From assembly GCA_016936655.1 (NCBI GenBank), contig JAFGXL010000002.1:1-61907 (forward strand): a stretch of DNA of 61,907 nucleotides, given 5' to 3'. The notes under the pieces are model-generated. The model was not told where the DNA came from, ran no database searches, and saw nothing but the letters and a program-made list of their open reading frames with translations. How positions within the stretch are numbered: position 1 is the stretch's first letter; each line of letters begins with the position of its first letter. The translations under genes and the position numbers were made by a program. The stretch comes from Nitrospirota bacterium (GTDB lineage: Bacteria > Nitrospirota > Thermodesulfovibrionia > Thermodesulfovibrionales > Dissulfurispiraceae). Shown here piece by piece: positions 464-23,557 of this stretch.

Positions 464-2377
464 CTACGGTTTAAAGTTTTTCAGCAGTGACTCCGCATCT
501 TTGCTGTTATGCAGAGCAGCGCCTTTAGCGCCTGCATAATCCCTTGCCATCTTTTTTGTAAAACTGCCTGCCTGTTTGTCTATGGCAGAAACATCTCTCT
601 TTGCCTTCTCAAAATATGCCAGATGCTTTTTATACAGTGCCATATCAGTCTTTATCGTAAAGTCTCCGGGCACAACCCACTTGTCCTTAAAAAAGAGCCA
701 TGAAGCAAAATCCTCCAGCTTGTAGCCTTCAGCAGGCACTATCTTGCCGGTTGCTGCCAGATTATCTATCCTGAGGCTCTTTGAATCAGCAACAATGTTG
801 TACCCTCCCTTAAATGGCTCTTTGGCTCCCTGATCATCCATATATTCCCAGCTTGATCTGGATTTCTGAGTTTGCGAAGCGTGGCAGCTGGCGCAGTCTC
901 TAGACCTGCCAAACGGATGAGCTGCCTGCTGCATCTCTAGCCATAGCAGATGCCTGTTGTTCGCCTTTGCATCAAATGTTCCCATCACATAGTACGCATC
1001 TCTAGTCTCTCCTCCGGTAGGCCTGAACATCACGCCTCCTGACGGCTTCACCTCATTTTTTATATTTGCTACGCTATGAGGCCATACTTTAATGGGCATC
1101 CATCTGCCTTTTTGATCCTTGAAAATAATCGGCGGACTCTGTATGCCGTAATATAAAGAATATTTCTTGAACGGATTCGGCTTTTCAGCAACCTTGCCCG
1201 GCCCCCATATAGTTATCTGGTATCCGCGCAGCTCTGATATATGGCATGCTGCGCAATCGAGATTTTTATGCACGCTCTTTCTGTGCGCATCTTCTATCTC
1301 GACATGGCAATCCTGACAGGTAGCCTTTCTCTGCTTGTCTCCCATGCCCTTTGGACCTGTCATATGGCACTCTATGCAATGTATGCCTTTTGTGTAGTGA
1401 ACATCAGGCTTCATTCCTGTTGGAAGAGAGTAGTCTCCTCCTATGAAAGTCTCGCCTCTTCTGCTCTGCATTGCACCGGGATGACAAATATTTGTTCCCC
1501 TGCCGTATCCGCCACAGCTTAAAGCAGTGGGATTATTAACAAAATTATGAACACCTTTTTTTGCATCTGGAGCATAGTGGCAGTCTAGGCATCCTGTATG
1601 ACATACATTGCACGCTTTCTGTTTTGCAATCGCCTGCTCTCTAGTAAAAGGCACATTAAGATTATCGGCCAGCCTTGATGTATTTTTGAAATCAAACCCA
1701 GCCTTCTCAAAAACCTCTGCTGGAGGAAGATCAGCAAATGAAGGACCGCAGTTGTGCGGGCCAAACTCATCTGTCCATGTCTTCATAGCACGCTGCCTGA
1801 TATTGCCGCCCATGTGAGTCTTGCTGAACTGCTCTACCATCTCTGGATGGCAATTGGATGTACCGCATGTTTTTGCAGCTATTTTTGGTTCATAGCCCAA
1901 AGTAACAGGATCACGGTCATGCCATAGGACATTTTTAACATCTGGATGCGTAAAAGTCTCTCCGTCCTCTGTGACAACTGGAAGCATCTGGCGTATCTCA
2001 TCACTGCCTCTCGGTATCAAGGAATCAGGAGCAGTAGTTTTGCGATTAAGCACATTATAGTCATATCCTATCAGCATAGCCTTGAGCATAACCTTGTGTG
2101 CTTCATCAGCGGTCTCCGCCCTGCCATTGCCAAGATGGCACTGGTGACATTTAACATTTGGATGCTTACTCTGCTTTTGCGCCATCTCTTGCGAAACAAA
2201 AAACTGCGGAAAGCCGAGCTGCTCCATCTTTTTTGAATCTGAATGACACCTTACGCACTCAGCATCAGAATTACGCCAATGCTTGTGTCCAAGAAAAGCA
2301 GTTATAACGAAGAACTGGAGAAAAAAGATGATGATTGTCTTTTTATTGATAAAGTCGCTCAGCCTGCCCGCTTTCAT
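464..2377 (-). CDS. Membrane-anchored multiheme c-type cytochrome
   Basis: 637 residues with an N-terminal hydrophobic segment (about residues 13-30) that should anchor or export the protein to the outer face of the membrane. There are eight CXXCH heme motifs (CVRCH, CHQCH, CNVCH, CLDCH, CIECH, CQDCH, CAACH, CASCH). There is also CGTSNCH (CX4CH) and a more distant pair, CGGYGRGTNICH (CX9CH), that may bind further hemes. The role is periplasmic electron transfer; the partner is unknown. The final 200 residues lack heme motifs. Similar large cytochromes are common in sulfate- or metal-respiring lineages. No quinol oxidase or reductase subunit is adjacent, so the pathway cannot be named. Confidence 0.85.
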   Translation of the reverse strand: MKAGRLSDFINKKTIIIFFLQFFVITAFLGHKHWRNSDAECVRCHSDSKKMEQLGFPQFFVSQEMAQKQSKHPNVKCHQCHLGNGRAETADEAHKVMLKAMLIGYDYNVLNRKTTAPDSLIPRGSDEIRQMLPVVTEDGETFTHPDVKNVLWHDRDPVTLGYEPKIAAKTCGTSNCHPEMVEQFSKTHMGGNIRQRAMKTWTDEFGPHNCGPSFADLPPAEVFEKAGFDFKNTSRLADNLNVPFTREQAIAKQKACNVCHTGCLDCHYAPDAKKGVHNFVNNPTALSCGGYGRGTNICHPGAMQSRRGETFIGGDYSLPTGMKPDVHYTKGIHCIECHMTGPKGMGDKQRKATCQDCHVEIEDAHRKSVHKNLDCAACHISELRGYQITIWGPGKVAEKPNPFKKYSLYYGIQSPPIIFKDQKGRWMPIKVWPHSVANIKNEVKPSGGVMFRPTGGETRDAYYVMGTFDAKANNRHLLWLEMQQAAHPFGRSRDCASCHASQTQKSRSSWEYMDDQGAKEPFKGGYNIVADSKSLRIDNLAATGKIVPAEGYKLEDFASWLFFKDKWVVPGDFTIKTDMALYKKHLAYFEKAKRDVSAIDKQAGSFTKKMARDYAGAKGAALHNSKDAESLLKNFKP

Positions 2378-2388
2378 GAGACAGGCTT

Positions 2389-3267
2389 TCAGTTTGTTGC
2401 AGGAGCGCTGGCTGGGCTGCCTGTTGTAAATGGCTTTACAGCAGACTGGTGCGGTTCTGGAAGCGTAAGATAAACAACCTCCCCCTTTGCTCCAAGTGGC
2501 CCGATCTCTCTACCGTTGAAACTGAATTTTACTCCTGCAGCATTGCCTATCTTAATTTTGAAGATGCCGTCCGCTCTAAAGCTCTGAGTCTCTCCGGCAT
2601 TCATGATAATATCGTTCCTGGACTTGTCGTCAGCATTTATCTCAAGCCAGACCTGATCTGTGGCATTAATAGTGAGAATATATTTTGACTTTGCAGCTGC
2701 AGATTTTTGGTCATCAGAGGCAGTATTTGCTGAAGTCGGAGCAGAAGGCAACTGCTGGTCAACGCTCTGCTGGGCAGGCTGATCAGAAGCAGCATTTGGA
2801 GTAGGCTCAGATGGAATTTCAGGTGAAGGCATAACAGGAGCAGGCATTTCAGCAACAGAGCCTCTTCCCATAGTCTGCCAATTGTCTCTGACAAAAACAT
2901 ATATCCCAAATGCTATAGCAGCAGCAATGCATATTATGAACAGCTTTGGGATAAACAAAGATGGTTTTAATACAGGATATGCAGACCTGTCAGCAGCAGA
3001 TACTGCAGGCTCACAAGCTGCAGCAGCAATATCCTGCTTTGCGCTGTCCAGATACTGCTGATAAGGCAACACAGCATCAGAGAGAGGAACATCCAGATAC
3101 CGTGCATACTCTCGTATGTAACCTTTGGCATAAACTTCAGCAGGGAGCTTTGTAAAATCCTCTTCTTCTATTGCCTTAAGATAAGTAGTCCTTATGCGAA
3201 CCACCAGAGAGATATCCCTGAGTTCCTCGCCAAGCTCTTCCCGTTTTTGCTTGAGAATCTTGCTCAT
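2389..3267 (-). CDS. rodZ: RodZ-like HTH/DUF4115 membrane protein
   Basis: RodZ-type proteins link MreB to the rod-shape machinery. The N-terminal cytoplasmic part (residues about 1-70) is a Cro/C1-like helix-turn-helix beginning MSKILKQKREELGEELRDIS. A single transmembrane segment lies near residues 105-127, then a Pro/Ala/Ser-rich linker, then a C-terminal beta-rich DUF4115 domain containing LEINADDKSRNDIIMNAGE. The frame is open to a GTG at 3285, but the ATG at 3267 fits the family N-terminus better. Neither start has a clear ribosome-binding site. The gene ends 11 bp before the cytochrome start. Confidence 0.75.
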   Translation of the reverse strand: MSKILKQKREELGEELRDISLVVRIRTTYLKAIEEEDFTKLPAEVYAKGYIREYARYLDVPLSDAVLPYQQYLDSAKQDIAAAACEPAVSAADRSAYPVLKPSLFIPKLFIICIAAAIAFGIYVFVRDNWQTMGRGSVAEMPAPVMPSPEIPSEPTPNAASDQPAQQSVDQQLPSAPTSANTASDDQKSAAAKSKYILTINATDQVWLEINADDKSRNDIIMNAGETQSFRADGIFKIKIGNAAGVKFSFNGREIGPLGAKGEVVYLTLPEPHQSAVKPFTTGSPASAPATN

Positions 3268-4028: not shown

Positions 4029-6101
4029 CTGATAACAGGCATATCATTATTCAAAAGCAGAGCAGCCAAGAGAATCTTCTTCCTGTTTCTTGTATGCGCC
4101 ATGTTTCCGATAATTGTCTTTAGCTATGTTTCATTTATCCAGGTATCATCAAACCTTAAAGAACAGAGCATAGCGAGACTCCAGAGCTATGCTAAAACAT
4201 ACGGCCTCGGCATTATTGAGCGCGCTTCATTCCTCGAGGCTGATCTCGATGCCAACTCTCTTATAACAGCATCATCAGGCAGCGCATACAGCAAGAGACT
4301 TACAGAACACTTTAAATCAATCGCAATAGTAAAGGACGGCAAAGTTATCCGCACACTCTTTGGAAATATTACGCCCATTCCAGACAGCATACTCAGCATT
4401 TCATCCAAACAGGCACTGCAAAAAACAATAATCGCATTTTCAAAAAATGACAAAAGCAACAGCAGAATATTTCTGGCTAAATCAATAAAGCACCCTGACA
4501 ACTCATTCGGACTTATAGTTGGCGAAGCAGACCATCTTTATCTATGGAGCCTTGGAGCTGACAACAGCCTGCCGGCCATGACAGAAGCAGGCATAATAGA
4601 CCAGACAAGGCAGATACTATACAGCTCATTCAATATACCCTTAGAGGTACTCCAAAAAATAAAGTTTGATACAACCAGCCTAGAGAGCAGAAGTCTTGAA
4701 TACTCTGCCGGCGGAGAAGACTACCTGATAGTACACTGGCCATTATTCCTCAAATCCAGATTTGACGGACCTAATCTGATAATAATCCTCAGAAATTTCA
4801 AGACCGACATCTTTGCGCCACTTGCACATTTCAAGGTACTCTTCCCGCTTGTAGCTCTGCTCTCTTTCTGGATCGTGCTGCTGATGAGCATAATTTCAAT
4901 ACGCAAAAACATGATACCGCTCGAAACACTTAAAGCCGCAACCCTGCGCCTTGCACGCCGAGACTTCAAAACCAGAGTAGATGTTTCCAGCGGAGATGAA
5001 TTTGAGGATCTTGCAAATGCCTTCAATACAAGCATTGCAAGCCTCGGCCGCCAGTTTAATGCCATGGAAGTGATGGCTTATATAGACCAATCAATCCACT
5101 CATCACTCAACACAAAAGAGATTATTAATATTTCTCTCAACAGCATCCACAAATTCTTCAGCTGCAAAAGCGTCAGCTACAGCATCATAAAGGCTAACCA
5201 GCCCCATGTACTGCATACATTCAGCTGCATACCAAACAAGTCCGGAGAGATTATTGAAGAAGATCTAATCTTATCAAAAGAAGATAAACACCTATACCTC
5301 AAACAGCAGCAATTTTTTGTGATCGATGAACAAGACTGCACACCTTCATTTCTGTCGCCTGCTGCATGCACGAAAGCAAGACATTTCCTCATTTTGCCTC
5401 TTTTCCAGAACAACAGCCTTGCAGGCATAATGGCATTAGGACATTCAGAACCGCATCAATACACAGAAGATGACCTCAACTATGCAAAAAGACTCGCGCA
5501 CCAAGTATCCACAGCCCTCTCCAATGCCAGACTTATGGAAGAGCTGGAACAGCTCAACTGGGGCACACTTGAGGCTCTGGCCAGAACCGTTGACGCCAAA
5601 TCTAAATGGACTGCCGGACATTCTGAAAGAGTGGCAGATCTATCCGTAAAAATCGCAAAAACAATGGGCTGCAATGACAAAGAGATCAAGGCTCTGCAGC
5701 GTGCATCCTTTTTGCATGATATAGGCAAAATCGGGATACCGCCCTCAATATTGGACAAACCAGGGAAACTTACTCCCGAAGAATACAACATCATCAAAGA
5801 ACATCCTGCCATTGGCGCCAAGATACTCGAGCCCATAGAGTCATATACTAACATCATCCCAATCGTATTGCAGCATCATGAATACTATAACGGCAAGGGA
5901 TATCCGCAAGGGCTTGCAGGAGAACAGATAACTCTCGGTGCCAGAATACTTTCAGTAGCAGATGTATATGACGCACTTATATCTGACCGCCCATACCGAG
6001 AAGGATGGGTAAAGCTAAATGTAGTCAAACTTATATGCGATCAATCAGGCAAACAGTTCGATCCTAAAGTTGTGGAAGCCCTTATCTACACAATGTCGTA
6101 G
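4029..6101 (+). CDS. HAMP-GAF-HD-GYP transmembrane receptor (probable c-di-GMP phosphodiesterase)
   Basis: The protein has a sensor region between two membrane segments, the second at about residues 270-290. A HAMP linker (about 295-345), a GAF domain (about 360-490) and a C-terminal HD-GYP domain follow. HD-GYP motifs are visible: HSERVADLSVKIA, HDIGKIGIP, HPAIGAKIL, and HHEYYNGKGYP, in which the usual Asp of HHExxDGxGYP is Asn. HD-GYP proteins hydrolyse cyclic di-GMP. The first ATG in frame (4101) would cut the first membrane helix. An upstream CTG at 4029 follows a GAGAGGA ribosome-binding site and restores a basic-then-hydrophobic N-terminus, so I prefer it. The start is uncertain. Confidence 0.8.
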   Translation: MITGISLFKSRAAKRIFFLFLVCAMFPIIVFSYVSFIQVSSNLKEQSIARLQSYAKTYGLGIIERASFLEADLDANSLITASSGSAYSKRLTEHFKSIAIVKDGKVIRTLFGNITPIPDSILSISSKQALQKTIIAFSKNDKSNSRIFLAKSIKHPDNSFGLIVGEADHLYLWSLGADNSLPAMTEAGIIDQTRQILYSSFNIPLEVLQKIKFDTTSLESRSLEYSAGGEDYLIVHWPLFLKSRFDGPNLIIILRNFKTDIFAPLAHFKVLFPLVALLSFWIVLLMSIISIRKNMIPLETLKAATLRLARRDFKTRVDVSSGDEFEDLANAFNTSIASLGRQFNAMEVMAYIDQSIHSSLNTKEIINISLNSIHKFFSCKSVSYSIIKANQPHVLHTFSCIPNKSGEIIEEDLILSKEDKHLYLKQQQFFVIDEQDCTPSFLSPAACTKARHFLILPLFQNNSLAGIMALGHSEPHQYTEDDLNYAKRLAHQVSTALSNARLMEELEQLNWGTLEALARTVDAKSKWTAGHSERVADLSVKIAKTMGCNDKEIKALQRASFLHDIGKIGIPPSILDKPGKLTPEEYNIIKEHPAIGAKILEPIESYTNIIPIVLQHHEYYNGKGYPQGLAGEQITLGARILSVADVYDALISDRPYREGWVKLNVVKLICDQSGKQFDPKVVEALIYTMS

Positions 6102-6136
6102 CTGAATAATCCTGCTGTAGCATATCAGCTAAAAAA

Positions 6137-6304
6137 CTAAGACTTTCTGCTTGTCTTTGCAAAAAACCCGGAAATAAGCCTTACAGTATTATCACTGCCG
6201 CAGTGCGGACATTTGATCTTAGGGCTGGCATCAAACTCCTTTAACGAAAGAAAAACAGTAAAGACCTTTTTGCAATCCATGCACTGATACTCATAAGCAG
6301 GCAT
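6137..6304 (-). CDS. FmdB-family zinc ribbon protein
   Basis: A 55-residue protein starting MPAYEYQCMDCKKVF. Two CxxC pairs (CMDC near residue 8 and CPHC near residue 32) form the FmdB/CxxC zinc ribbon. Members of this family are small putative regulatory proteins of unknown specific function. It is convergent with the HD-GYP gene, 35 bp apart. Confidence 0.8.
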   Translation of the reverse strand: MPAYEYQCMDCKKVFTVFLSLKEFDASPKIKCPHCGSDNTVRLISGFFAKTSRKS

Positions 6305-6384
6305 AACACACCTCCGTCAGAATCATTCTGATAATACAAACAGCATCTGTAAAATTATAGCGGATAAAACAGGAGGGATCACAT

Positions 6385-6408
6385 AAATAGGGACAGCTGT
6401 CCCTATTT
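6385..6408. repeat. 24-bp perfect palindrome at phage-fragment boundary
   Basis: AAATAGGGACAG followed immediately by its exact reverse complement. The phage-derived reading frame begins two bases after it. It resembles the GGGAC-containing ends seen around 54566, 56433 and 57197 in this window, so it may be a REP-like or IS200-type element footprint. It is too short to carry a gene. Confidence 0.6.
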
Positions 6409-6410
6409 AA

Positions 6411-6827
6411 TTCCACAGAGGCCCGGACTTCAAGAGGTTCTATGAAGGAAAAACAGGAGGGAACTTTCCTGTGGCAGTACTGGATGAGGAATATAAAACC
6501 CTAATAAGCGCAAAGGGACAGACTGTCATGCTGTCCGACGAGACGCTCGCCAAACAGCGCGGATGTATTGAGGGTGTGCCTGGACATCCGGAACTGACAC
6601 TTGAAGACTACCAGAATCTTCCCAGAGTTATTGCAAATGCGCAACTTATCGTACAGGATAGTGAACAGACGCTCGTCTTTTTTAAGTCAGGCAAAACTAT
6701 ATATTTTGCAGCAGTAAAGGCTACAAGAAGCGGAGAGTCTCTATTCATGACATCACTCAGAAAGGCTGTAATGAAGGATGTAAAGGCTATTAAAAAGAAA
6801 GGGAAGATTTTGAGAGATGAATTATAA
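6411..6827 (+). pseudogene. Mu-like phage head protein (gpF type), C-terminal nuclease-like domain only
   Basis: The frame reads FHRGPDFKRFYEGKTGGNFP and continues through YKTLISAKGQTVMLSDETLA to the stop at 6827. This resembles the barnase/EndoU/RelE-like domain (PBECR type) attached to the C-terminus of Mu gpF-family minor head proteins. A TAA in the palindrome ends the frame upstream, so the head-morphogenesis portion is missing. A GTG at 6471 could start a 118-residue product, but the homologous sequence extends upstream of it. It is followed by two overlapping phage genes in typical phage order. Confidence 0.65.
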
Positions 6828-6963
6828 AGGCCTTGGGTGGGGCTCCCCTTCACCCACACGCAATCCGCTCATTGCTGAGCGTCCTACGGCCGGGAGATTC
6901 ACCGTGTTTCCAAGGCCTGATGATCTCATTATAGGATGTGGCGATGATCAAAATCAATGTTAA
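6817..6963 (+). CDS. Small phage protein between gpF and gpG homologues
   Basis: A 48-residue frame starting MNYKGLGWGSPSPTRNPL. Its start overlaps the end of the preceding phage gene and its stop overlaps the start of the gpG homologue, which is typical tight phage packing. No function is recognised. It accounts for the whole 110-bp gap between the two phage genes. Confidence 0.55.
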   Translation: MNYKGLGWGSPSPTRNPLIAERPTAGRFTVFPRPDDLIIGCGDDQNQC

Positions 6964-7056
6964 CGACAATGAAGCGCGGCAGCTACTGACCAGACTACAG
7001 GGCAAGCTGAAGGACATGCGGCCTGTGATGGGCCGGTTGCATGAACAGTTGCAAGA
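6944..7056 (+). pseudogene. Mu gpG-like virion morphogenesis protein, truncated by CRISPR repeat
   Basis: It starts MIKINVNDNEARQLLTRLQG and continues to about residue 37 (VMGRLHEQLQE). This matches the N-terminus of the phage virion morphogenesis (Mu gpG/tail completion) family, which is normally about 150 residues long. Phage sequence stops exactly at the first base of the distal CRISPR repeat (7057); everything beyond in this frame is repeat and spacer. Confidence 0.7.
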
Positions 7057-7547
7057 GTTTCAATCCACGCCCCTGCGTGAGGGGCGACTCCTGCTTGAGC
7101 ATTTCCCCTTTAGAGTTGATAAGTTTCAATCCACGCCCCTGCGTGAGGGGCGACAGGAGTGCGGAGAATACTGTAAACCTAAATACATGTTTCAATCCAC
7201 GCCCCTGCGTGAGGGGCGACCTTTAACCCGAGCCCAGAAAACATTAAGTGATGGTTTCAATCCACGCCCCTGCGTGAGGGGCGACCAACATGTAGAGGCA
7301 GACAGGGTGAGCAATCCTGTTTCAATCCACGCCCCTGCGTGAGGGGCGACCTATTAAGTATGCGTATGTAGGAGGTGCGCCATGTTTCAATCCACGCCCC
7401 TGCGTGAGGGGCGACTGGCGTGTCATAGTGCCTATCGGTTTTACCAAAGGTTTCAATCCACGCCCCTGCGTGAGGGGCGACAAGTCATTATCGCATTGGC
7501 GGATACACGGGACACGTTTCAATCCACGCCCCTGCGTGAGGGGCGAC
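7057..7547 (-). CRISPR. Type I-C CRISPR array, leader-distal block (8 repeats, 7 spacers)
   Basis: Eight identical 32-bp repeats start at 7057, 7123, 7189, 7254, 7319, 7384, 7450 and 7516, with spacers of 33-34 bp. In the transcribed (minus) orientation the repeat begins GTCGCCCCTCACGCAGGGGC and ends GTGGATTGAAAC. It contains a CGCCCC/GGGGCG stem and the conserved ATTGAAAC 3' handle typical of type I-C. The distal terminal repeat at 7057 is not degenerate and abuts a truncated phage gene, so the natural end of the array seems to be missing. Confidence 0.98.
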
Positions 7548-10500
7548 CTTCAGCCTCTAATAAGCTCGCAGTAGTTTCGGTGACCATCATCTTATAAAAT
7601 GGGTTCCGTTCTGCTAAGGCTGTATCCCAACGATAATTATCGAACTCCGATACATGTATGGTGTTCAGTTCTGCAATAGATACCCCGAGTTCTTTAGCAA
7701 GCGCCTCCTTTGCCTCTCTCCATGTCCTGATACCTTTAAGGTCAGTTCGGTCAACGGTTTCAAGTTCACGCTCACCCAGGAATACATCACCTACTTGGAA
7801 AGGCTCAAGTAGCTCTGCAAATTGATATAGTTGCTGAGTGGTCATTTTGTCGATAGAGGGCAGATCGAGCGCGTTCCGGTAGTTATCAATCTTTTGCAGC
7901 CTGCGGATATATATAACATCCATGAGTTCAGCCTTGGCTTGTGCTTTATCTGCAAGCTCAACCGCTCTCTGGTATACCTTATCCGCAAATCCCTTAAATT
8001 CCGCATCGGTCATTAAAACAGGATTGCTCTTTGTGATCTTCCGTAAATCGTTATCATTTAAGCCGAGCGTATCGCGTATATCGCGTATTTTTCTGCGTCG
8101 AGCATCCATTTTCTGTTTATCAGTTTTGATCTTCTCTATTTGTTCTATTGCCTGACCTCTGGCCTGTTGCAGAGCCTCTTTCATGATCGCCTTTTGTGCT
8201 TCTACTCCAGCTTGGTTCCCTTCGCGGTATGCTATCTTTGCGGCTTGGCTGGCCTTCTTGAACGCCGCTTTAAGTGCCTGCGTTTCAGATACCATAATTT
8301 CTTGGCGGGTCTGTCCCGTTTCTTCACGGATCACGGTTTTGGTCGCTGATTTCGGCCCGACTTCTTTCATCTTCTCATAGCGGGTCACATCTTCGGGCCT
8401 ACCGATACTCCCCCGCTCTCCCAACTGTTCATTAAACGCCTTGACGCTCTCCCATACCTGTTTGATGAAGCCTTTGACCTTCTGCCATACTTCGCCGAGG
8501 GTTTCTTTCATCTTAGCCGTGAAAGTCTGATGGGTAGTTTCTCCAGCGCTCCACACTGCATTACCGAGGTCTATAAGCGAATCAATATCAACCGATCCGT
8601 TTTCATTCAGAAGGATGTCCTTCACCTTTTGCGCTTTGTCTTGTATCTCTTCTTCTGCTGCCGCTTCGAGTAAGGTATCCCCCTTGACTCCAGTTTCAGG
8701 GAGCGGTATACTATCTTCAGAACCCGTTAAGTCGGACTGACTTCCGGAAAGACTCTCCGGTTTGCCCGCCTCGGTGGATGCATCGAGTTGCGAGGAATAC
8801 GAGGGAACCGTCGCCCCTCCAGTCTGAAGCAAACGGGTTTTTTGTTCCCTAAACTTTCTTAGATATCTCTCAATCGTGCTTTTTTCGTCTGTCCAGAAGT
8901 TCCATAAAACATTCTTATCTTTTCCGACTGTGATTTCGACAACAGCAACATATCCTGCATCTGCTTGTTTTACCAACAGAACGCTCTTTGATCTGTATGG
9001 AGACTTAGCGGTAGCTATATTTGGCAATATCTCATCAGGTGACTCGACGGTCTCCTTGAGTGTGTCAATGTCATCTTTGGTCATCCAAGGACGCTTTTTC
9101 GCAATATAATCTATTGTTTTTTGTGGTATAACCGTATCACCTTCTTGCGTCTGAAATCCAAGAGCATTGATTTCAACTGCGGTCTGTGGTGATATTGTCC
9201 CAACAACATCATTATTTGAGTAACGCTTTATCCCCTTTTGCGCCTCTTCACTCTCCGTCATCCGATCAAACAGCACATCCAACGCAGCATCATCGACTTG
9301 TGTATCTGTCTCTTCTGTGGTGATTAACGTATCAACAAAAGCATTCAACTCTCGTTCTTCCCGGGCCTTAGCCTGTGCTTCAGCTTGTGCGGGATTAAGC
9401 GCCTCTTTTTGCATTTTCTCAAGAGTAGCCTCTATTACCATTGCTGACTCCGCAGCTTCCCCAACTTGGTCTATGTATTTTTGCCCTGATTCCATCTTAG
9501 AAATTGCCCGCGTTGCTTCAATATGTGCGGCTTCCGGATCAACCCCTTTTGCTACCAGTCCGCTTACTGTGCCTTCATATACAGCCTTAACGTCAAGAGG
9601 CATCTGCTGCTCAGCCTTCCGCGCCTTCGATGTAGCATCGTTAAGCGCATTTAGAACAACGCTGGCCCCAGAGCCAACAATACCGCCAATAGCACTTTGA
9701 TACCAGAACTCATCCCACGAAAAGGCTTTATTAGGATCATTTACCGCTGCTGTGCTTATGGCATATTGAGGCCCTTCCTGTAATGGCCCTTCCATTGCTG
9801 CAGATTTGAGAGCCTTACTTACTCTAGTCCCGTTCTCTGCAAACAGTCCGAGCTTATTCGTCACCATAAGCAAAGGAATATTAGACCAGAATGTTATCCG
9901 CGCCGCCTTTGCTGCTTCGTCCCGTGGGTCTTTAGCGGGCAGTCCCGACGACTCTCTGTTTTGGCGTTCGGTGAGTTCGACTTTACTATCAAAAACACTT
10001 CCTGCTTCTGATAATGCCTCAAGTGAAGACATCGTGCTGACTCCAAGCCAATTCGCCAAGGATGGGGCAGCAGATGCAATTTTGGTTGTTCCTCTGGCTA
10101 CTATAGTCCCAGGTATGAGGAATGTCCCCATGGAGCCAACGCCTGATCCTAAGTCAGAGGCAAATCTGGGATTTACATTTATGTCCTGCGCCCTCTCTTT
10201 TAACCAGTCGGCTCCAGTGCGGCTTAGGTTTGCCAGCCATCCTAAGCCGGGCACGTCGTCCATAATCCAGTCAAGTCCCGACAAAGACGAGGCTACTGTT
10301 TGGATGCCACCAGCTGCAACCCCTTTGCCAAACTCGGGGATGCCGGCTGCTATGCGCTCCGGCGTTACAGGCGTAATCTTATCTTTCATCATGAGCGCGG
10401 CCCGCTGTTGATCTGGGTGGTATAACTTTTGAGTAGATACGCCCCTCATATCTGGACGGACACCTCGGGCATCCATTGCCTTAGTGATCTGTTCCTCAAA

Positions 10501-10707
10501 CTCATAACTCCTGCTAAGTGGCATATCAAGCACTATCCCATTAGCAATAGCTCTTCTCAGCTTGTCTGCTGCATGTTGAGGATTTGAATGATCTTTCAAA
10601 AAATTGTCAAGCGATGGCTTTAGAGATACATCAACACTTGGGATAGAACTATAATCTTCCCAAGGTGTTCCTGCTTTCGCCTGGTAGTCTTCCCATGGCC
10701 CGCCCAT
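7519..10707 (-). CDS. Large phage structural/polyvalent-type protein, 3'-truncated
   Basis: The open frame is 1062 residues, of which the last nine (GRPSRRGVD) are read from the CRISPR repeat, so the real protein is cut at about residue 1053. The N-terminus has two PWEDY copies (MGGPWEDYQAKAGTPWEDYS), a motif seen in large phage virion and polyvalent proteins. A Gly/Ala-rich hydrophobic region lies around residues 130-370. Long charged, probably coiled-coil stretches rich in Ala, Glu and Lys follow (about 780-920). I infer a phage internal-virion or multi-domain injected protein; no catalytic motif is recognised. Its ATG overlaps the stop of the upstream gene, so the two form one phage operon. 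Confidence 0.7.
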   Translation of the reverse strand: MGGPWEDYQAKAGTPWEDYSSIPSVDVSLKPSLDNFLKDHSNPQHAADKLRRAIANGIVLDMPLSRSYEFEEQITKAMDARGVRPDMRGVSTQKLYHPDQQRAALMMKDKITPVTPERIAAGIPEFGKGVAAGGIQTVASSLSGLDWIMDDVPGLGWLANLSRTGADWLKERAQDINVNPRFASDLGSGVGSMGTFLIPGTIVARGTTKIASAAPSLANWLGVSTMSSLEALSEAGSVFDSKVELTERQNRESSGLPAKDPRDEAAKAARITFWSNIPLLMVTNKLGLFAENGTRVSKALKSAAMEGPLQEGPQYAISTAAVNDPNKAFSWDEFWYQSAIGGIVGSGASVVLNALNDATSKARKAEQQMPLDVKAVYEGTVSGLVAKGVDPEAAHIEATRAISKMESGQKYIDQVGEAAESAMVIEATLEKMQKEALNPAQAEAQAKAREERELNAFVDTLITTEETDTQVDDAALDVLFDRMTESEEAQKGIKRYSNNDVVGTISPQTAVEINALGFQTQEGDTVIPQKTIDYIAKKRPWMTKDDIDTLKETVESPDEILPNIATAKSPYRSKSVLLVKQADAGYVAVVEITVGKDKNVLWNFWTDEKSTIERYLRKFREQKTRLLQTGGATVPSYSSQLDASTEAGKPESLSGSQSDLTGSEDSIPLPETGVKGDTLLEAAAEEEIQDKAQKVKDILLNENGSVDIDSLIDLGNAVWSAGETTHQTFTAKMKETLGEVWQKVKGFIKQVWESVKAFNEQLGERGSIGRPEDVTRYEKMKEVGPKSATKTVIREETGQTRQEIMVSETQALKAAFKKASQAAKIAYREGNQAGVEAQKAIMKEALQQARGQAIEQIEKIKTDKQKMDARRRKIRDIRDTLGLNDNDLRKITKSNPVLMTDAEFKGFADKVYQRAVELADKAQAKAELMDVIYIRRLQKIDNYRNALDLPSIDKMTTQQLYQFAELLEPFQVGDVFLGERELETVDRTDLKGIRTWREAKEALAKELGVSIAELNTIHVSEFDNYRWDTALAERNPFYKMMVTETTASLLEAEGRPSRRGVD

Positions 10708-11096
10708 CAGTTCACCTTTTCCCAGCTTTCAGGCTTGGCAGGGTCGCCACCTTTAAATCTATACCCCTTACTAACAGCGCCCACTTGAGGCGTTCTCAAA
10801 CTGCCAGACTTCCCCTTCTGTGGCAAAGGCCCTGCCACTCCCTGTGCTTTTTTAAATTTTCCCTGCCTATCTGTTTCATCAGTGGCGAACCAGCTTGTAA
10901 CCAGATCAGAAAATACGTGCTCTTCTAAGTACTGTGTAAGTTTAGCCTCGAAATCAGGTTTATCGAAGTTGTTATACGCAAATGCCTTCACTATGTCTCC
11001 ATATTTTTGTTTCCATACCGCAGCCTCGTTCTTATCTTTAAGGTTCAATGCTTCAGAGAGCGCCGACCCTGTATTAATCTTACTCAATGCCCTCTT
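7548..11096. mobile_element. 3,549-bp phage DNA segment occupying one CRISPR spacer slot
   Basis: The segment lies between the intact repeats ending at 7547 and starting at 11097, with no partial repeat at either edge. It encodes two minus-strand phage-type genes; the larger is cut at its 3' end by the repeat and the smaller is cut at or just before its start. Cas1-Cas2 integrates about 34 bp, so this is not an ordinary spacer. Possible origins are recombination between two spacers and a matching phage, or an assembly join through spacers identical to phage sequence. Confidence 0.85.
10707..11087 (-). CDS. Phage hypothetical protein upstream of the large protein
   Basis: 126 residues starting with TTG (SKINTGSALSEALNLKDKNE). 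The C-terminus is basic and glycine-rich (QKGKSGSLRTPQVGAVSKGY). Its stop overlaps the start of the large phage gene. Only nine bases separate the putative start from the CRISPR repeat, and the frame is open further upstream into the repeat, so the true 5' end may be lost. No function is recognised; the pairing suggests a virion-associated gene. Confidence 0.55.
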   Translation of the reverse strand: MSKINTGSALSEALNLKDKNEAAVWKQKYGDIVKAFAYNNFDKPDFEAKLTQYLEEHVFSDLVTSWFATDETDRQGKFKKAQGVAGPLPQKGKSGSLRTPQVGAVSKGYRFKGGDPAKPESWEKVN

Positions 11097-13255
11097 GTTT
11101 CAATCCACGCCCCTGCGTGAGGGGCGACAACGGGTATTGGGCATGCCGTCAGCAAAGATTGTGTTTCAATCCACGCCCCTGCGTGAGGGGCGACAGGTCA
11201 AAGGTAGCTCGATGCTGCCAACACTGCGAGTTTCAATCCACGCCCCTGCGTGAGGGGCGACTCAATACGTCCGCTGCCTGTACTGTCTGCACAAGTTTCA
11301 ATCCACGCCCCTGCGTGAGGGGCGACATCCTGGTAGAGTTTTCTATTGTCCTTATTGTGAGTTTCAATCCACGCCCCTGCGTGAGGGGCGACCGTACCTG
11401 CTGACCTGCTTAAGTCAGCGGAGCAGGTGTTTCAATCCACGCCCCTGCGTGAGGGGCGACTGGGGTGCTCTGAACGATGGAGTGCTTAATCCTCGGTTTC
11501 AATCCACGCCCCTGCGTGAGGGGCGACTAAGCAAGGGCGCATGGAGTCTGATCTTCGAGTATGTTTCAATCCACGCCCCTGCGTGAGGGGCGACGCGCTC
11601 CTGAAGTCTTATCTACATGCAGAAAAAAGTTTCAATCCACGCCCCTGCGTGAGGGGCGACCAACAACGTTAAGGCTCTTGTCCGTGGAGACGTTGTTTCA
11701 ATCCACGCCCCTGCGTGAGGGGCGACCCGACCATCTACAGCCACAAGATGGGCCTGCAATGTTTCAATCCACGCCCCTGCGTGAGGGGCGACAAACGCGG
11801 CATCGGAACAGATGAGCTTATAACAAAGTTTCAATCCACGCCCCTGCGTGAGGGGCGACCGCCCGGAACCTCCCAAACTATTCACCCACGCTGAAGTTTC
11901 AATCCACGCCCCTGCGTGAGGGGCGACCATGGCATCCGTTATATCAGTATGCGGGCACGATTGTTTCAATCCACGCCCCTGCGTGAGGGGCGACCCTTAC
12001 CGATCCGCAAGGCAATGCCATAGAGAAGTTTCAATCCACGCCCCTGCGTGAGGGGCGACTATAAACAACTCTGCATCAATGCAGGATGTATTTGTTTCAA
12101 TCCACGCCCCTGCGTGAGGGGCGACCCAATATGTACCACTCGCAATACAGTGGACAATCGTTTCAATCCACGCCCCTGCGTGAGGGGCGACGCGCATACA
12201 AATATCAGGGCAAGAGCGGTATAAGGTTTCAATCCACGCCCCTGCGTGAGGGGCGACGTTCAACAACTGTGTCGTCTGCAAGACGGATTAAGTTTCAATC
12301 CACGCCCCTGCGTGAGGGGCGACGCTGGTGGAGGCTCTATGAGAAAGGTTTACAGCGAGTTTCAATCCACGCCCCTGCGTGAGGGGCGACCCGCCTTGAG
12401 CCTCGCGCTATTGTCCGGCACGTCGTTTCAATCCACGCCCCTGCGTGAGGGGCGACACAAACTGATGGCAGATTTGTGTCAAGTGTTGTTAGTTTCAATC
12501 CACGCCCCTGCGTGAGGGGCGACAGGAGTTGCCACCGCAAAGACGCTGAATGTGCCGTTTCAATCCACGCCCCTGCGTGAGGGGCGACGATTTGCCGGTG
12601 TTGCCAACTCTTAATTATTCGCCGTTTCAATCCACGCCCCTGCGTGAGGGGCGACCATCGCATCGGGCAGGAACATAAGGTGGTTTATATTGTTTCAATC
12701 CACGCCCCTGCGTGAGGGGCGACGGGCTATTGGTATCCATGATGATGTGTGGATAGTGTTTCAATCCACGCCCCTGCGTGAGGGGCGACCGACATCATAG
12801 GCATTGAGGGTTGCGCTGTCCTGTGTTTCAATCCACGCCCCTGCGTGAGGGGCGACCGCCGAAGGATCAGCTTTTAAGACTCCCAAAAGAGTTTCAATCC
12901 ACGCCCCTGCGTGAGGGGCGACCAGCATGCTTGAGTTGAGTGATTCATGGTCAGCGTTTCAATCCACGCCCCTGCGTGAGGGGCGACTTCCGAGATCTTG
13001 TGCGAAGTGCAAAAAGATGCGTTTCAATCCACGCCCCTGCGTGAGGGGCGACCCCTGCGCTTGAGCTCCTGAATAGTCCAGATCAGTTTCAATCCACGCC
13101 CCTGCGTGAGGGGCGACCAATGACGCTGACAGCAGCGTATGATGCAGCCAAGTTTCAATCCACGCCCCTGCGTGAGGGGCGACCCAAGCGTTACATAGGC
13201 AAAGGAGCCAGCTTCTCTGCCAAGTTTCAATCCACGCCCCTGCGTGAGGGGCGAC
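11097..13255 (-). CRISPR. Type I-C CRISPR array, leader-proximal block (33 repeats, 32 spacers)
   Basis: Thirty-three copies of the same 32-bp repeat run from 11097 to the last at 13224-13255. Spacers are 33-36 bp, except the one next to the leader (13184-13223), which is 40 bp. The leader side is at high coordinates, next to cas2. All repeats look identical, and together with the distal block there are 41 repeats. Frames across the array that give repeated VAPHAGAWIET or SPLTQGRGLK are translations of the repeat, not genes. Confidence 0.98.
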
Positions 13256-13441
13256 AGTACATCCATAAAACCTTACAAATCAAACTACTTAGCTGCCAAT
13301 TTCTGCGAACCCTATTCAAAATGCTTTTTTAAAGTCAGATGTCAAAGAGCAAATACAAAAATCGTTATAATTTTTAGTGTCTTATACTCTTCGCGAACCT
13401 TAGGGGCAAACAATGCATGCTTACAGTTCGCAAACCACAAT
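13256..13441 (-). promoter_or_regulatory. CRISPR leader
   Basis: This is the AT-rich 186-bp region between the cas2 stop and the first repeat. Reading toward the array it holds a TTGACA box (plus positions 13340-13345) but no strong -10 at the usual distance. GCGAACC occurs at 13305-13311 and 13393-13399 (plus strand), with an inverted GTTCGC at 13426-13431. These may be leader binding sites for adaptation or transcription. Confidence 0.8.
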
Positions 13442-13732
13442 TCAAACAATAAGCGGCCCTTGTTGATCAATAGGTTCCTTTGCTCCAACATGCTCCACCT
13501 TATGCTTCCAGTTTGAGCCGAGATAATAAAATCTGAGGCTGTCTTTTTCATGATCAATCTCTGATACCAATCTGTCCTTTAATTTTGTCCATTGGGCTGG
13601 ATCAACTATACACTCAAAAACAGAATATTGAACTCTTTGCCCAAAATCCTTGCAAGCGCGCGCAACACGTCTCAAACGCCTCTGGCCTGTCTCGTCACTT
13701 GTCATAACATCATAGCTTACAATCACAAACAT
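13442..13732 (-). CDS. cas2: CRISPR-associated endonuclease Cas2 (type I-C)
   Basis: 96 residues starting MFVIVSYDVMTSDETGQRRL. The early Asp in VSYDV is the conserved metal-binding position, followed by the ferredoxin-fold pattern RRVARACKDFGQRVQYSVFE typical of type I-C Cas2. Cas2 forms the structural core of the Cas1-Cas2 spacer integrase. It is the last cas gene, 9 bp after cas1 and next to the leader, as usual for I-C loci. Confidence 0.95.
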   Translation of the reverse strand: MFVIVSYDVMTSDETGQRRLRRVARACKDFGQRVQYSVFECIVDPAQWTKLKDRLVSEIDHEKDSLRFYYLGSNWKHKVEHVGAKEPIDQQGPLIV

Positions 13733-13741
13733 GACTGCACC

Positions 13742-14773
13742 TCACTTCCATATAAACGGCGGATAATTGTCCAGATCTCCTCTCAAATACCTGGCCATAA
13801 GCAGTGATTGCACATATGGCAAAAGACCAATTGATATCTTTTGACCAATGAAGGGATGTTCAATCTCATCCTGCTTGCGTTTCTGGTAGGCAACCAGCAC
13901 TGTCTTCCTTGTATCATCATCCATTCTTACTGCTCCTGATTCTTTTTTAAGAAACCCCTTACCCTGCACCTGACAAAGGTTAATAAGCGAGAGCGCAAGT
14001 CTGTCTGAAAGGAAAGGCCTGAACTCCTCCATAAGATCAAGCGCAAGACTATATCTGCCAGGCCTGTCTCTGTGCAAGAATCCAACCGCAGGATCAAGCC
14101 CAACTGATTCAAGAGCCGAACGAACATCATGCATTAAAAGAATATAAAGAAACGATAACAGACAGTTCACATTATCGAGCGGCGGCCTTCTGTTGCGGTC
14201 TCGAAAAACAAAGTTATCCTTTTGGCTGGTTATCAGATTATCAAATACCGAGAAGTAAACATTCGCAGCCTCACCCTCTATGCCGCGCAGAGAGTCGAGC
14301 GAATCCTCTATCTGGATACGCCGCGCGCAATTAACAAGCGCCTGGGATGATGCTGTAACAGCATCAAGATCAACCTTGTCAGCATGATCTCTAAGAACTC
14401 GCTGCAATACTGTGCGTGAATTTATAACCTTGGCAGAGAGAAAAGAACGTGCAACCTTTGCAGCACCGAGCAGATCATCTGCACGTCTGTACTGTTCTCT
14501 CCTCAAAAGCACATTACCTGATACAGGCCCCTGGACTTTTGCAAGGAAATCTCCGTTTTCAGTTAAGAAACTTACAGCAACACCGCTCTCCGCACAGAAA
14601 CCCATGAGATATGGACTGCATGACACTTGACCAAAGCAGACGATACCTCCAAGAGTGTGAATCGGCAGCCTCAGCGCTACATCACCGTTAGTCTTGACTG
14701 TGACGGTTTCTCCCTCTTTTGCGAGATATGCGCCCTGTGTTGTTACAAAAAGCGTATTGAGAAGCTTTTTCAT
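13742..14773 (-). CDS. cas1: CRISPR-associated integrase Cas1 (type I-C)
   Basis: 343 residues, normal I-C length. Conserved regions are visible: GIEGEAANVYFSVF containing the metal-binding Glu, then GLDPAVGFLHRDRPGRYSLA with the conserved His, and LDLMEEFRP with the conserved acidic residues. Cas1 catalyses spacer insertion at the leader-repeat junction. The start ATG overlaps the stop of the preceding RhuM-family gene by four bases, so translation is probably coupled. Confidence 0.95.
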   Translation of the reverse strand: MKKLLNTLFVTTQGAYLAKEGETVTVKTNGDVALRLPIHTLGGIVCFGQVSCSPYLMGFCAESGVAVSFLTENGDFLAKVQGPVSGNVLLRREQYRRADDLLGAAKVARSFLSAKVINSRTVLQRVLRDHADKVDLDAVTASSQALVNCARRIQIEDSLDSLRGIEGEAANVYFSVFDNLITSQKDNFVFRDRNRRPPLDNVNCLLSFLYILLMHDVRSALESVGLDPAVGFLHRDRPGRYSLALDLMEEFRPFLSDRLALSLINLCQVQGKGFLKKESGAVRMDDDTRKTVLVAYQKRKQDEIEHPFIGQKISIGLLPYVQSLLMARYLRGDLDNYPPFIWK

Positions 14774-15822
14774 CTTTTGCGTCTCTGTGTCTTTTTCCTT
14801 TCGATAGCAGCTTCAATTTTCTTCAATTCATCATCAGCTACAAGCATATCCTCTTTTGCTTCTTTTTTAAGTCTGCTGCTGTTATAGGCTTCATAGTGAC
14901 CAAGCGCCAGTTTATTGGCTACTTCTTTAGTCACCTTGCCTGCATTAGTCAGAATATCCCTTTCGTTAAATTGCAGAAATGCATCCAACTTTTCACGCCA
15001 ATTGCGCATAAAGACCTGCCTGCGACGTTTGGCCTGGTCTTCGGCATAATTCAGATACATTTCCACAATGCGGTTAAGATGTTCTATCTCGTCGTGATTC
15101 AAGTAATTCTTGGCAATGGTCACATCCCCTCTGCGGATTTTGGCGCCCTTCCATGAAGTCAATCCCATATTGGGTTTAGATGCATCCGCCCGTTCTGTTA
15201 TTATTTCAGCAGCAGTCTTTCCAGATACTGCAAAGTGCAGCTTGTTCTGGACAATACTAAAAAATTCCAGTGTTTCTTCTGCATTCGGATCGTAATCAAC
15301 AGCAAGTTTGTAGATGTCACGGATCTTTTGATAAAAACGCTTTTCGCTTGACCGGATGTCTCTTATCCGCTCAAGCATCTCATCAAAGTAATCAGAGCCG
15401 ATATTATTAACTTCCTTCAACCGTTCATCGTCCATTGTGAAGCCTTTGACAAGGTACTCGTTCAAACGCTCTGTTGCCCACCGCCGAAACTGTGTGCCAC
15501 GATGTGACTTCACCCGATAACCTACCGCAATAATTGCTTCAAGATTGTAAAATTTAGTGCAGTAGTTCTTGCCGTCAGCAGCAGTTGTCAAGTATTCCTT
15601 GACAACTCGTTTTTCGGGCAGTTCGCCCTCATCAAAGACATTTTTGAGATGCAGGCTTATGTTTTGCTTTGTGGATTGAAATAACTCAGCCATTGACAAT
15701 TGGCTCATCCAGACAGTTTCGTGCTGCAATCTCACCTCAATATTAGTCTTCCCGTCCTCTGTCTGATACAGAATAAGTTCGCCTTTCTCAGAAGCCGGCT
15801 CTTTCTTTTTCTTCATAGGCAT
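14770..15822 (-). CDS. RhuM-family protein embedded in the cas operon
   Basis: 350 residues. The region about 15-110 (ETVWMSQLSMAELFQSTKQN, then a YNLEAIIAVGYRV segment) and FRRWATERLNEYLVKGF near residues 115-130 are diagnostic of the virulence RhuM family. These proteins have an antirepressor-like DNA-binding N-terminus and no established biochemical function. A charged, helical C-terminus ends in basic residues. The gene lies between cas4 (3 bp upstream) and cas1 (4-bp overlap), so it is fully co-transcribed with the adaptation genes. It is not part of the usual I-C gene set. A role in regulating or protecting the adaptation module is possible but unsupported. Confidence 0.85.
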   Translation of the reverse strand: MPMKKKKEPASEKGELILYQTEDGKTNIEVRLQHETVWMSQLSMAELFQSTKQNISLHLKNVFDEGELPEKRVVKEYLTTAADGKNYCTKFYNLEAIIAVGYRVKSHRGTQFRRWATERLNEYLVKGFTMDDERLKEVNNIGSDYFDEMLERIRDIRSSEKRFYQKIRDIYKLAVDYDPNAEETLEFFSIVQNKLHFAVSGKTAAEIITERADASKPNMGLTSWKGAKIRRGDVTIAKNYLNHDEIEHLNRIVEMYLNYAEDQAKRRRQVFMRNWREKLDAFLQFNERDILTNAGKVTKEVANKLALGHYEAYNSSRLKKEAKEDMLVADDELKKIEAAIERKKTQRRKR

Positions 15823-15825
15823 TCT

Positions 15826-16461
15826 TTATTCCTCCATTGAGTCGAGTAAATATTTACTCGCTCTTGCGCTCACCTTCGGCATGCATAGACTCAATAATGA
15901 ACATTGCTTACACTTCTTTGAGTATTCAGCCTTTGGCGTGATCCCTGATTCAATCAATTCATGCACCTTCTTTGCTGTTTCTTCTGTCTTTGATCTCAAA
16001 GCGCTATCAAAAGTCACATCCAGACGCCGCCGAGTCAGCCCATAAAAAAGTGCGCCTTGCTTAATCTCAATATTCAGCATCTCCTCAAGACATATCGCCT
16101 GGGCGCAGAGCTGCACCTTGTCACAATCATTAATCTTGGGTTTTCCGCGCTTGTATTCCACAGGAAAAGGCAGCCAGCTCCCATTATCCTGCTTGTGAAA
16201 CTCCACTACATCAGCCTTACCCGATAATCCAAGCCTCAAAGAACGCAGCGGCACCGAGTAATCAACCCTTATTTCTCCCCTTGCCTCAAACTTGTTGCTG
16301 TCAGCTTTTTCGTGCATAACCCTGCCCTCGGCAGTAAAAAGGTTCTCACTCCATATCTGCTCTATGTGAATCAAGGCGCATCTGCGCGGACAATACAGAT
16401 AGTGATTAAGCGCGGAGAGCATTACAATATCGTCTATTTCATAACTTTTCTCAGATAACAT
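15826..16461 (-). CDS. cas4: CRISPR-associated exonuclease Cas4
   Basis: 211 residues. Iron-sulfur cysteines are visible as YCPRRC near residue 24 and CKQCSLLSLCMPK near the C-terminus, giving the four-Cys cluster. The RecB-type nuclease motif includes the Asp of SGKADVVEFH and PVEYKRGKP with the conserved Glu and Lys. Cas4 trims prespacers and helps choose PAM and orientation. Its start overlaps the cas3 stop by 11 bp. Length is normal for I-C. Confidence 0.93.
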   Translation of the reverse strand: MLSEKSYEIDDIVMLSALNHYLYCPRRCALIHIEQIWSENLFTAEGRVMHEKADSNKFEARGEIRVDYSVPLRSLRLGLSGKADVVEFHKQDNGSWLPFPVEYKRGKPKINDCDKVQLCAQAICLEEMLNIEIKQGALFYGLTRRRLDVTFDSALRSKTEETAKKVHELIESGITPKAEYSKKCKQCSLLSLCMPKVSARASKYLLDSMEE

Positions 16462-18673
16462 AGCTTTTAATATCCCCTGTTTTCAGCACTCCCGCCATAT
16501 ATCCTAAGAAATCTTGGTCATAGTCAAGCATCCAGTCATAAAGGTCATTGAAGCCCCGCAACGGCCTCAGTGCAAACTTGTTTATGTTATTACTATAAAT
16601 GGCCACTGATTTCTGCTGTAACTCTGTAAAATCAACTTTCTCATGGCGTTCTATTCTTTCGCACATTTCTCTATCAATTATTGCCGTAACAGTATTTGCA
16701 GGTATTACTCTAAACTGGTCTTTAACCGCTGGAAAGTCCTTGTTGCGTTCAGATATTACTACAGGATTGCTATCTGCATTAAGTTGATTTTTCTCACGTA
16801 CTTCTCTTTTCATTGCCTCTGTGCAATATTCAGGCGCAACCTTTCTTTCATCAAAGAACTGTTTCAATATTCTTGCTGATGTTGCAAATGAAGGATGTTC
16901 TTTGAGAGAATCGCCTGGTACTATCTGGAAATTCCATAGCTCGCTTTCACCGTGCTCACCTGAACGATTGATTCGTCCGGCTGTCTGAATTGTGCTTATA
17001 AGACTGCAATATTCTCTTGCAGCAGTTCGAAATGAAAAATCTATCCCTGCTTCAACGCATGAGGTCGCAACCAACGTCCAATTTTTATCATCAGGATTTT
17101 TGAGACGTTGTTTTATTCTTTCAAGTATTTCTTTCCGATGAATCGGAGCTAATGCTGTAGAAAGTTGCTCAACAAATTTTCTGTCGCCGTATGATTCAAG
17201 TAATTTTTTGGCAACAGATGCAGCAGATTGTACCGTATTCAAGATAATCAACCTTGGCCCTCGCAGCTCTTTTATCCATTTACAAAGTTCATCTGCATTA
17301 AGCGGTTTCTGTTTCCTTTCATATTTTATACGAATTGATTCGCCTTCTAATGCCGACTTTCTCACGGTGTCATCAACAAGTTCGGGAATATTCTTTAATG
17401 GCGGATTAGAAAATTCCTCCAATTCCCAGAAACGATTTAATGAACCGGATGCAAGTACAACATAACAACCCCAGTCGTCAACAAGTTCCTTTAACCATTT
17501 TAACGCCTGCGCCCATAAAGGAGCAGGCAACGCAGCATGTGCCTCATCAATAAATATCGCAGAACCTGCGAGTTGATGAAGTTTCCGTAAAGAAGCGGGA
17601 TGATTGCTCGCCAGTGTTTCAAAAAACTGCACAGCTGTAGTAACTGTTATAGGCGCATTCCACAGGAATGAGAAAACTCGTGAAGAAATATCTTCAAACT
17701 CGGCTTTGTGATGATGCGCCGCAACTGCTTTTTCAGGACTCTCACCTGTCAAAACCAAATTTCTGTAAATATCAACTGACTGGTCAATAATGTTCGTAAA
17801 TGGAAGCACGACAAAGATTCTCCGTAATTTTTTGGTCCTTGCCACATTCAGTAAATGCGCCATAACCGCAGTAGTCTTACCAGTTCCTACAGGGCTGTCA
17901 CAAGTGATGAACCCTTTATCGGATGGAGGTGCATTACGACACGATTTATATATCGCTTGTCGAAGTCTGTTTCTCTCACTATCATCCGATGCTTTTTGGG
18001 TCAGCCCTGCAACGTATTTATCCAATAAGGTGAGCCTCTTGTCTGGAGAAAGCAAAATCTCACCTTCAGGAATAATGTTGTTGTAATGACGGGCGGTATC
18101 GGTGTGATCTGCATCTACAAGGCATGAAAGTGCTATCCGCATACATAGAGGTGTCGGCGATGTCCCATGCCATTCGGATTTTTTCACCTCAGGCATATCG
18201 CTCAATTGTGACTTGTGAGATTCAAGATAATCACTCAGATATTTATCAATAATCTCCTTAACCGCTCTGCCATCCTGATTAAGTGATGTATCACGGAAAA
18301 CTTTCCCTTTGCCCTTCGCACTCTCGTCCGGCAATGACTGTAATCCGATATGGTGTGAATAAACAAATAAGGCTGCGAGATTCTCAGGCAATGACAAATC
18401 ACCCGATTGTAATGCAGCTACACCTGCATCAACATGATTAAATGGAAGACTCTTTTTACTGCTAGATTTTAAAACTTTCTGGTTTTCAGGCGCAAGTTTG
18501 CCCAAGTCATGATAGAGTGCAGCAAGCGCAACGGTTTCCTTCATAAGCTCACCATAGTGGGAATATGTTCCGGCTCTTACAGCATTATCAAACGCCATTT
18601 TATATACATTAGATACATGCGCTTGATAAGACTGCGCTTGGATATAACCTTTTGCGCTGTGTGCTAAAAACAT
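16451..18673 (-). CDS. cas3: CRISPR-associated helicase/nuclease Cas3 (displaced position)
   Basis: 740 residues. The N-terminal HD nuclease domain (about 1-200) has AHSAKG, YQAHV, YHDLGK, NHVDAG and YSHHIG as metal-binding positions. The superfamily 2 helicase part has Walker A SPVGTGKTT, DEAH box FIDEAHAALP and motif VI QTAGRINRSG. Cas3 is recruited by Cascade to unwind and degrade target DNA. In canonical I-C operons cas3 is the first gene, before cas5; here it sits between cas7 and cas4. A decayed stub of a different cas3 remains at the ancestral place (22282-22437). The gap to cas7 is two bases. Confidence 0.93.
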   Translation of the reverse strand: MFLAHSAKGYIQAQSYQAHVSNVYKMAFDNAVRAGTYSHYGELMKETVALAALYHDLGKLAPENQKVLKSSSKKSLPFNHVDAGVAALQSGDLSLPENLAALFVYSHHIGLQSLPDESAKGKGKVFRDTSLNQDGRAVKEIIDKYLSDYLESHKSQLSDMPEVKKSEWHGTSPTPLCMRIALSCLVDADHTDTARHYNNIIPEGEILLSPDKRLTLLDKYVAGLTQKASDDSERNRLRQAIYKSCRNAPPSDKGFITCDSPVGTGKTTAVMAHLLNVARTKKLRRIFVVLPFTNIIDQSVDIYRNLVLTGESPEKAVAAHHHKAEFEDISSRVFSFLWNAPITVTTAVQFFETLASNHPASLRKLHQLAGSAIFIDEAHAALPAPLWAQALKWLKELVDDWGCYVVLASGSLNRFWELEEFSNPPLKNIPELVDDTVRKSALEGESIRIKYERKQKPLNADELCKWIKELRGPRLIILNTVQSAASVAKKLLESYGDRKFVEQLSTALAPIHRKEILERIKQRLKNPDDKNWTLVATSCVEAGIDFSFRTAAREYCSLISTIQTAGRINRSGEHGESELWNFQIVPGDSLKEHPSFATSARILKQFFDERKVAPEYCTEAMKREVREKNQLNADSNPVVISERNKDFPAVKDQFRVIPANTVTAIIDREMCERIERHEKVDFTELQQKSVAIYSNNINKFALRPLRGFNDLYDWMLDYDQDFLGYMAGVLKTGDIKSYVI

Positions 18674-18675
18674 CT

Positions 18676-19542: not shown

Positions 19543-19566
19543 ATTCCTCCTTTTACATAATTTGTT

Positions 19567-22243: not shown

Positions 22244-22281
22244 TTTCCCCTCCTTCTTTTAGAATGATTTATATAATTTAA

Positions 22282-22437
22282 CCCATGCCACAGTCCCGCC
22301 AGACAGCCGCACTGCCCGCATCCGAATTCATCGGCAAAGGATTTCGCCAGTTCAGCCGTACTTTTCAAGTGTGATTAAAGTAGATGCCACTCCTCAACCG
22401 GCTTACCCTCAATGCTATGGGCATAAAATTCTTTCAT
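22282..22437 (-). pseudogene. Decayed N-terminal stub of a second cas3
   Basis: Reading from an ATG at 22437 gives MKEFYAHSIEGKPVEEWHLL, an in-frame TAA, then SHLKSTAELAKSFADEFGC and LAGLWHGL. This matches the HD-domain start of canonical type I-C Cas3 (FYAHSxEGxPxEEW, then LAGLWHDLGKY). The final Asp of the HD motif is Gly and homology stops there. Its place directly before cas5 is where cas3 normally sits, so this is a relic of the ancestral cas3. Confidence 0.8.
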
Positions 22438-22528
22438 AATTAATACCCTCTTTTACCTATTGTCTTTAATCATTCTGCCTTTAAACCTTACCGCTTACAA
22501 AACCTACTTAAGCAATTCTTCAATTCAA

Positions 22529-22609: not shown

Positions 22610-22678
22610 CTCTCTTACAAAAGCAAGCTTAAACTACTTAATCCGTTTAAACTGCTAAACTGCTTGAGCGGTTATTAA

Positions 22679-23506: not shown

Positions 23507-23557
23507 TATTTAACCTCGCTCTTTTAAAAAACTTTCTTGTTAATCCTCACCTCTTCC

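Follow-up and report, generated by a model that had tools for sequence, protein, structure and literature searches.

The type I-C CRISPR array described here raises the question of how 3.5 kb of phage DNA came to occupy a slot in which a single spacer would be expected. The window referred to below is the whole stretch of DNA that was analysed, 61,907 nt in length.

A type I-C array with one oversized slot

Counting repeats across the whole genome returned 41 identical 32-nt copies of GTTTCAATCCACGCCCCTGCGTGAGGGGCGAC, all of which belong to the type I-C array in the window (7057–13255). The minus-strand cas operon on the right ends with cas2 at 13442, placing the leader at the right. The array and operon are arranged as follows.

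7057–7547, minus strand: leader-distal part of the array, 8 repeats and 7 ordinary spacers
7548–11096, minus strand: phage segment filling slot 33 of 40, with perfect repeats at both bounds and a single copy in the genome
11097–13255, minus strand: leader-proximal part of the array, 33 repeats and 32 ordinary spacers
13442–22243, minus strand: type I-C cas operon, in transcription order cas5, cas8c, cas7, cas3, cas4, rhuM-like, cas1 and cas2 (PADLOC and Pfam models)

The type I-C assignment follows from the repeat, which is 32 nt long, ends in GTGGATTGAAAC and alternates with spacers of ~34 nt, and from PADLOC matches for cas5c, cas7c, cas8c, cas1c, cas2c, cas4c and cas3, the best matches including Cas1c, Cas2c, Cas4c, Cas3c, Cas8c and Cas5c. 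Numbered from the leader, the phage segment is slot 33. The 39 ordinary slots span 33–40 nt, the leader-proximal spacer (13184–13223) being 40 nt long and all others 33–36 nt. With 3,549 nt against 33–40 nt, slot 33 does not obey the length ruler of Cas1–Cas2 and is not an ordinary acquired spacer.

The sequence-only reading had described phage DNA that occupies exactly one slot, with no partial repeat, terminal inverted repeat or target duplication, and this description held in each part. Perfect repeats at 7516–7547 and 11097–11128 enclose exactly 3,549 bp (7548–11096), the best repeat-like match within the segment reaches 17 of 32 bases, and direct or inverted repeats at its edges are not beyond chance. 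The segment is present once in the draft genome of 42 contigs and 1.99 Mb. The marks of a transposon or insertion sequence were not found in it (terminal inverted repeats, target duplication within a spacer, or a transposase), nor were those of a prophage at an att site (an integrase or att core repeats); it holds only two truncated virion genes.

Gene content of the segment

Both phage frames lie on the minus strand, which is also the crRNA strand.

7548–10707, minus strand: N-terminal 1,053 codons of a polyvalent phage protein, cut at the left edge (weak Pfam matches to PBECR3/PBECR2, below curated cut-offs)
10707–11096, minus strand: last (C-terminal) 129 codons of the gene that precedes the polyvalent gene, truncated at the right edge (tblastn matches to phage protein C-termini)

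The polyvalent frame starts at 10707 and runs uninterrupted for 1,053 codons, passing the left edge into the repeat. Its last 200–230 codons are 45–49% identical to C-terminal sequence of a phage protein of 3,965 aa, and this similarity reaches the last codon at the left edge, with the relative extending well beyond. The right-edge frame, open into the repeat and ending at 10707, weakly resembles the C-terminal portions of 315–720-aa phage proteins (tblastn E from about 3e-4). The earlier claim that phage genes are cut at both edges is thus borne out by homology up to the last codon on the left and by the open frame on the right.

The stop and start of the two genes overlap by 1 nt (TGATG), as in phage LKA5, where the gene for the upstream protein is followed by a giant gene with a 1-nt overlap. 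The same gene pair is found in F116/LKA5-like podophages with giant polyvalent proteins (for polyvalent proteins see Iyer et al. 2017, PMC5512222), but the upstream gene resembles theirs only C-terminally, and the phage collection holds no close relative. Judged from these similarities, the segment comprises part of a pair of podophage-like virion genes. Searches for its source phage in the same genome, IMG/VR and the GenBank phages returned distant relatives only. The part of the relative's gene that lies beyond the left edge had no match in the same genome, in a search run without a positive control, and the segment is matched by no spacer of the window.

A second phage fragment at the terminal repeat

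Phage DNA also adjoins the leader-distal repeat, which had been overlooked in the sequence-only reading.

6411–7056, plus strand: second phage fragment, a C-terminal part of MuF with a PBECR3-like domain followed by an N-terminal part of gpG (weak Pfam PBECR3/MuF_C; PHROG 26, tail completion)

This fragment shares 75% DNA identity with a Mu-like prophage carried by G002, another genome from this family, and its phage is unrelated to that of the slot-33 segment. The gpG gene breaks off precisely where the terminal repeat begins at 7057, the leader-distal end of the array, while the far side of the fragment joins the chromosome at a non-spacer site. Spacers of related arrays matched neither of the two phage pieces.

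Phage DNA therefore meets the array exactly at a repeat edge at three junctions. Random breakage is disfavoured by three such junctions from two phages since, with a period of 66 nt, three breaks would seldom fall on repeat ends by chance. The three exact junctions point either to a joining route via repeats or spacers or to a single systematic fault of the assembly.

Two minor points concern the same region. In the G002 prophage, the stretch between MuF and gpG at 6830–6915 (GGTGGGGCTCCCCTTCACCCACACG...GGCCGGGAGATTCACCGTGTTTCC) is apparently better conserved than the surrounding coding DNA; an Rfam search with it gave no match, and it is possibly a phage RNA or regulatory element. An undegenerate terminal repeat was considered as a sign of a truncated array and discarded as uninformative, such repeats being common in related arrays.

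Motifs at the junctions

The type I-C motif is most often TTC, with TTN, TTT, CTN and CCN also known and GTC not listed (PMC8482600). The earlier observation that the 34 nt at the left edge are preceded by GTC and not TTC proved correct, and TTC is absent there at every spacer length from 30 to 41. Phage relatives carry GTT at the position of the window's GTC, encoding the same conserved Val. A canonical spacer at the left edge is unlikely on both counts, and escape from the motif by mutation of TTC to GTC was likewise judged unlikely, as the relatives keep Val at that codon. The left-edge TTC protospacer that spacer–target recombination would predict is therefore not found. At the right edge, the motif would fall outside the segment, and the sole homologue covering that position is, at 29% identity, too distant to be of use.

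At the terminal junction, a gapped alignment places TTN at the expected type I-C motif position in 98 of 105 gpG homologues (38 TTC, 40 TTT); this alignment needs a 4-residue gap, which the aligner prefers for the closest homologues, and in the ungapped alignment TTC is not among the common triplets. A search of phage records for protospacers, from 21 of the 39 spacers of the window, yielded only two weak matches, which were uninformative as to the motif.

These results bear on two mechanisms put forward in the sequence-only reading. The proposed double crossover with a phage through two spacers fared unevenly: the junction at 7056/7057 fits the joining of phage and array in general, but its one direct prediction, TTC at the left edge, fails. 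The alternative of an assembler walking through spacers identical to phage needs the same left-edge TTC spacer and is weakened to the same degree. Both became less likely, given the lack of TTC at the left edge and the Val of the relatives.

The CRISPR-cas island and its sister genome

The array, cas operon and Mu-like fragment lie in an island that sister genome G001 lacks.

About 6384–24603, no strand: CRISPR-cas island absent from G001, in which 150 bp separate the same flanks
6385–6408, no strand: perfect 24-nt palindrome AAATAGGGACAGCTGTCCCTATTT at the left island border, unique in the genome

The flanks in G001 correspond to window positions 6003–6381 and 24604–25341, and the 150 bp between them include a remnant resembling a Cas12a-type repeat. 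Since the island is missing between the same flanks, the whole CRISPR-cas region together with the phage fragment was evidently gained here or lost in the sister. On another G001 contig (L016, G001:C148, 1–361), a Cas12a-type array starts after the same left flank, that is, at the chromosomal site of the island, which by this comparison of sequences hosts different CRISPR loci.

Comparison with related arrays and known systems

The window's array was compared with about 90 others from related genomes, which together have 1,988 ordinary slots and include some duplicates between two collections. Inserts near or above 1 kb inside them were limited to an IS3-like element (L138) and a toxin–antitoxin module (L114). 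The former is likewise a kilobase-sized insert between two repeats, but it lies within a spacer and has inverted ends and an IS3-family-like transposase, all three of which the window's insert lacks. The latter, 916 bp long, occupies the final slot (2189–3137) of a type I-C array and is likewise a non-spacer insert of nearly 1 kb; unlike the window's, it is bounded by a diverged last repeat, and its AbrB-like and PIN-domain genes are complete. In L041, a gap of 1,709 bp was rejected as an oversized slot because it spans cas1 and is not inside the array. Inspection of array tails, by translation only, gave no obvious case of another related array ending in phage genes. In the type I-C array of L126, a 708-codon frame opens directly at the last repeat, perhaps a gene cut by the array end.

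Among known systems, spacer–target recombination between phages and CRISPR loci (Varble 2019 Nat Microbiol; Watson 2018, both as cited in PMC8616872) likewise joins phage DNA to an array at a spacer, with the CRISPR locus moving with phage DNA. As those loci are described there, CRISPR was transferred through phages, whereas in the window phage DNA stays in a chromosomal slot and the expected motif is missing at its left edge. The CRISPR loci of S. pyogenes into which prophages are reported to have integrated (Varble 2021, as cited in PMC10434264) also contain phage DNA; in contrast to what is summarized for those prophages, the window has no integrase, att site or complete prophage, only parts of two virion genes.

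Origin of the phage segment

The best single reading, held tentatively, is that the slot-33 segment is the scar of recombination between the CRISPR array and phage DNA; the likelihoods given here and below are our own weighing and were not computed. A spacer, or the border between repeat and spacer, would have been the point at which phage DNA joined the array. One slot would thereby have retained 3.5 kb of podophage DNA, and in a second, separate event about 640 bp of a Mu-like phage would have been fused to the leader-distal repeat. The absence of the island from the sister genome fits a CRISPR locus that travelled joined to phage DNA. We infer both that the joining ran through spacer–target homology rather than another route and that the assembly is correct at these junctions.

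An assembly chimera is unlikely, if still the nearest competitor. Here, the assembler would have left the array at one of two spacers identical to phage, walked 3.5 kb of phage and returned at the other, the terminal fusion being a similar error. That the genome is a 42-contig draft, that contig ends in related drafts frequently fall within an array or directly behind one, that every junction falls exactly at a repeat end, and that neither the segment nor the rest of the phage gene occurs elsewhere in the genome all agree with such an error. It would require a spacer at the left edge, however, where TTC is lacking, and an identity of 34 nt is shorter than the final word size of the usual assemblers. 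The other 39 slots assembled cleanly, the far side of the Mu-like fragment meets the chromosome at a non-spacer site, and a kilobase-sized phage slot occurs in none of the about 90 related arrays, which mostly come from drafts too. Less probable again is the uptake of a 3.5-kb phage fragment as one giant spacer, either by the type I-C adaptation complex or during repair of the staggered break that it makes in a repeat, the repeat being duplicated normally and 32 normal spacers added afterwards. Exact repeats on both sides and the lack of partial repeats are accounted for by such a capture, and so is the missing left-edge motif, which is due only at the crRNA-5′ edge, here the right one. We know of no example of kilobase-long spacers, however, and literature searches for them found none. 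The terminal Mu-like fusion, which lacks a second repeat, is not explained by capture alone. Cas4–Cas1–Cas2 also trims prespacers, as outlined in PMC6519985, which speaks against so long a fragment. In favour of capture, insertion away from the leader is known in type II-A (PMC7999890).

Most improbable among the readings weighed is a phage inserted into the array by an integrase, a transposase or a solitary repeat unit and later trimmed by deletion. It draws on the S. pyogenes integrations and on the proposal that phage-borne single repeats serve as a recombination route (PMC8616872). Against it, the segment has no integrase, att-like repeat or terminal repeat, both of its edges lie inside virion genes whose relatives have no repeat at that point, and a deletion stopping exactly at a repeat on both sides would be improbable.

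If real, recombination between array and phage would have left a natural chromosomal scar, evidence that kilobases of DNA are exchanged between CRISPR arrays and phages precisely at the borders of repeats, here two times in a single array and with two phages; it would bear on the movement of CRISPR loci with phages, on bypass of the spacer-length ruler and on arrays as infection records. If the structure is an assembly error, it is a warning on the reading of arrays in draft genomes. As for function, a normal repeat still precedes the segment on the crRNA strand, and processing may turn the segment's first ~34 nt into a guide; a slot-33 crRNA, if made, would start AAGAGGGCATTGAG. The seven oldest spacers would be expressed only if transcription crosses 3.5 kb of sense phage message.

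Further features of the cas region

Within the cas operon, a RhuM-family gene (14770–15822; PADLOC candidate PDC-S05) lies between cas4 and cas1. The cas3 gene (16451–18673) is placed between cas7 and cas4, unlike the usual order of type I-C operons, in which cas3 comes first. At its right end, upstream of cas5, the island carries a BRO-N family gene (PDC-S13) and a WYL-domain regulator (22679–24565).
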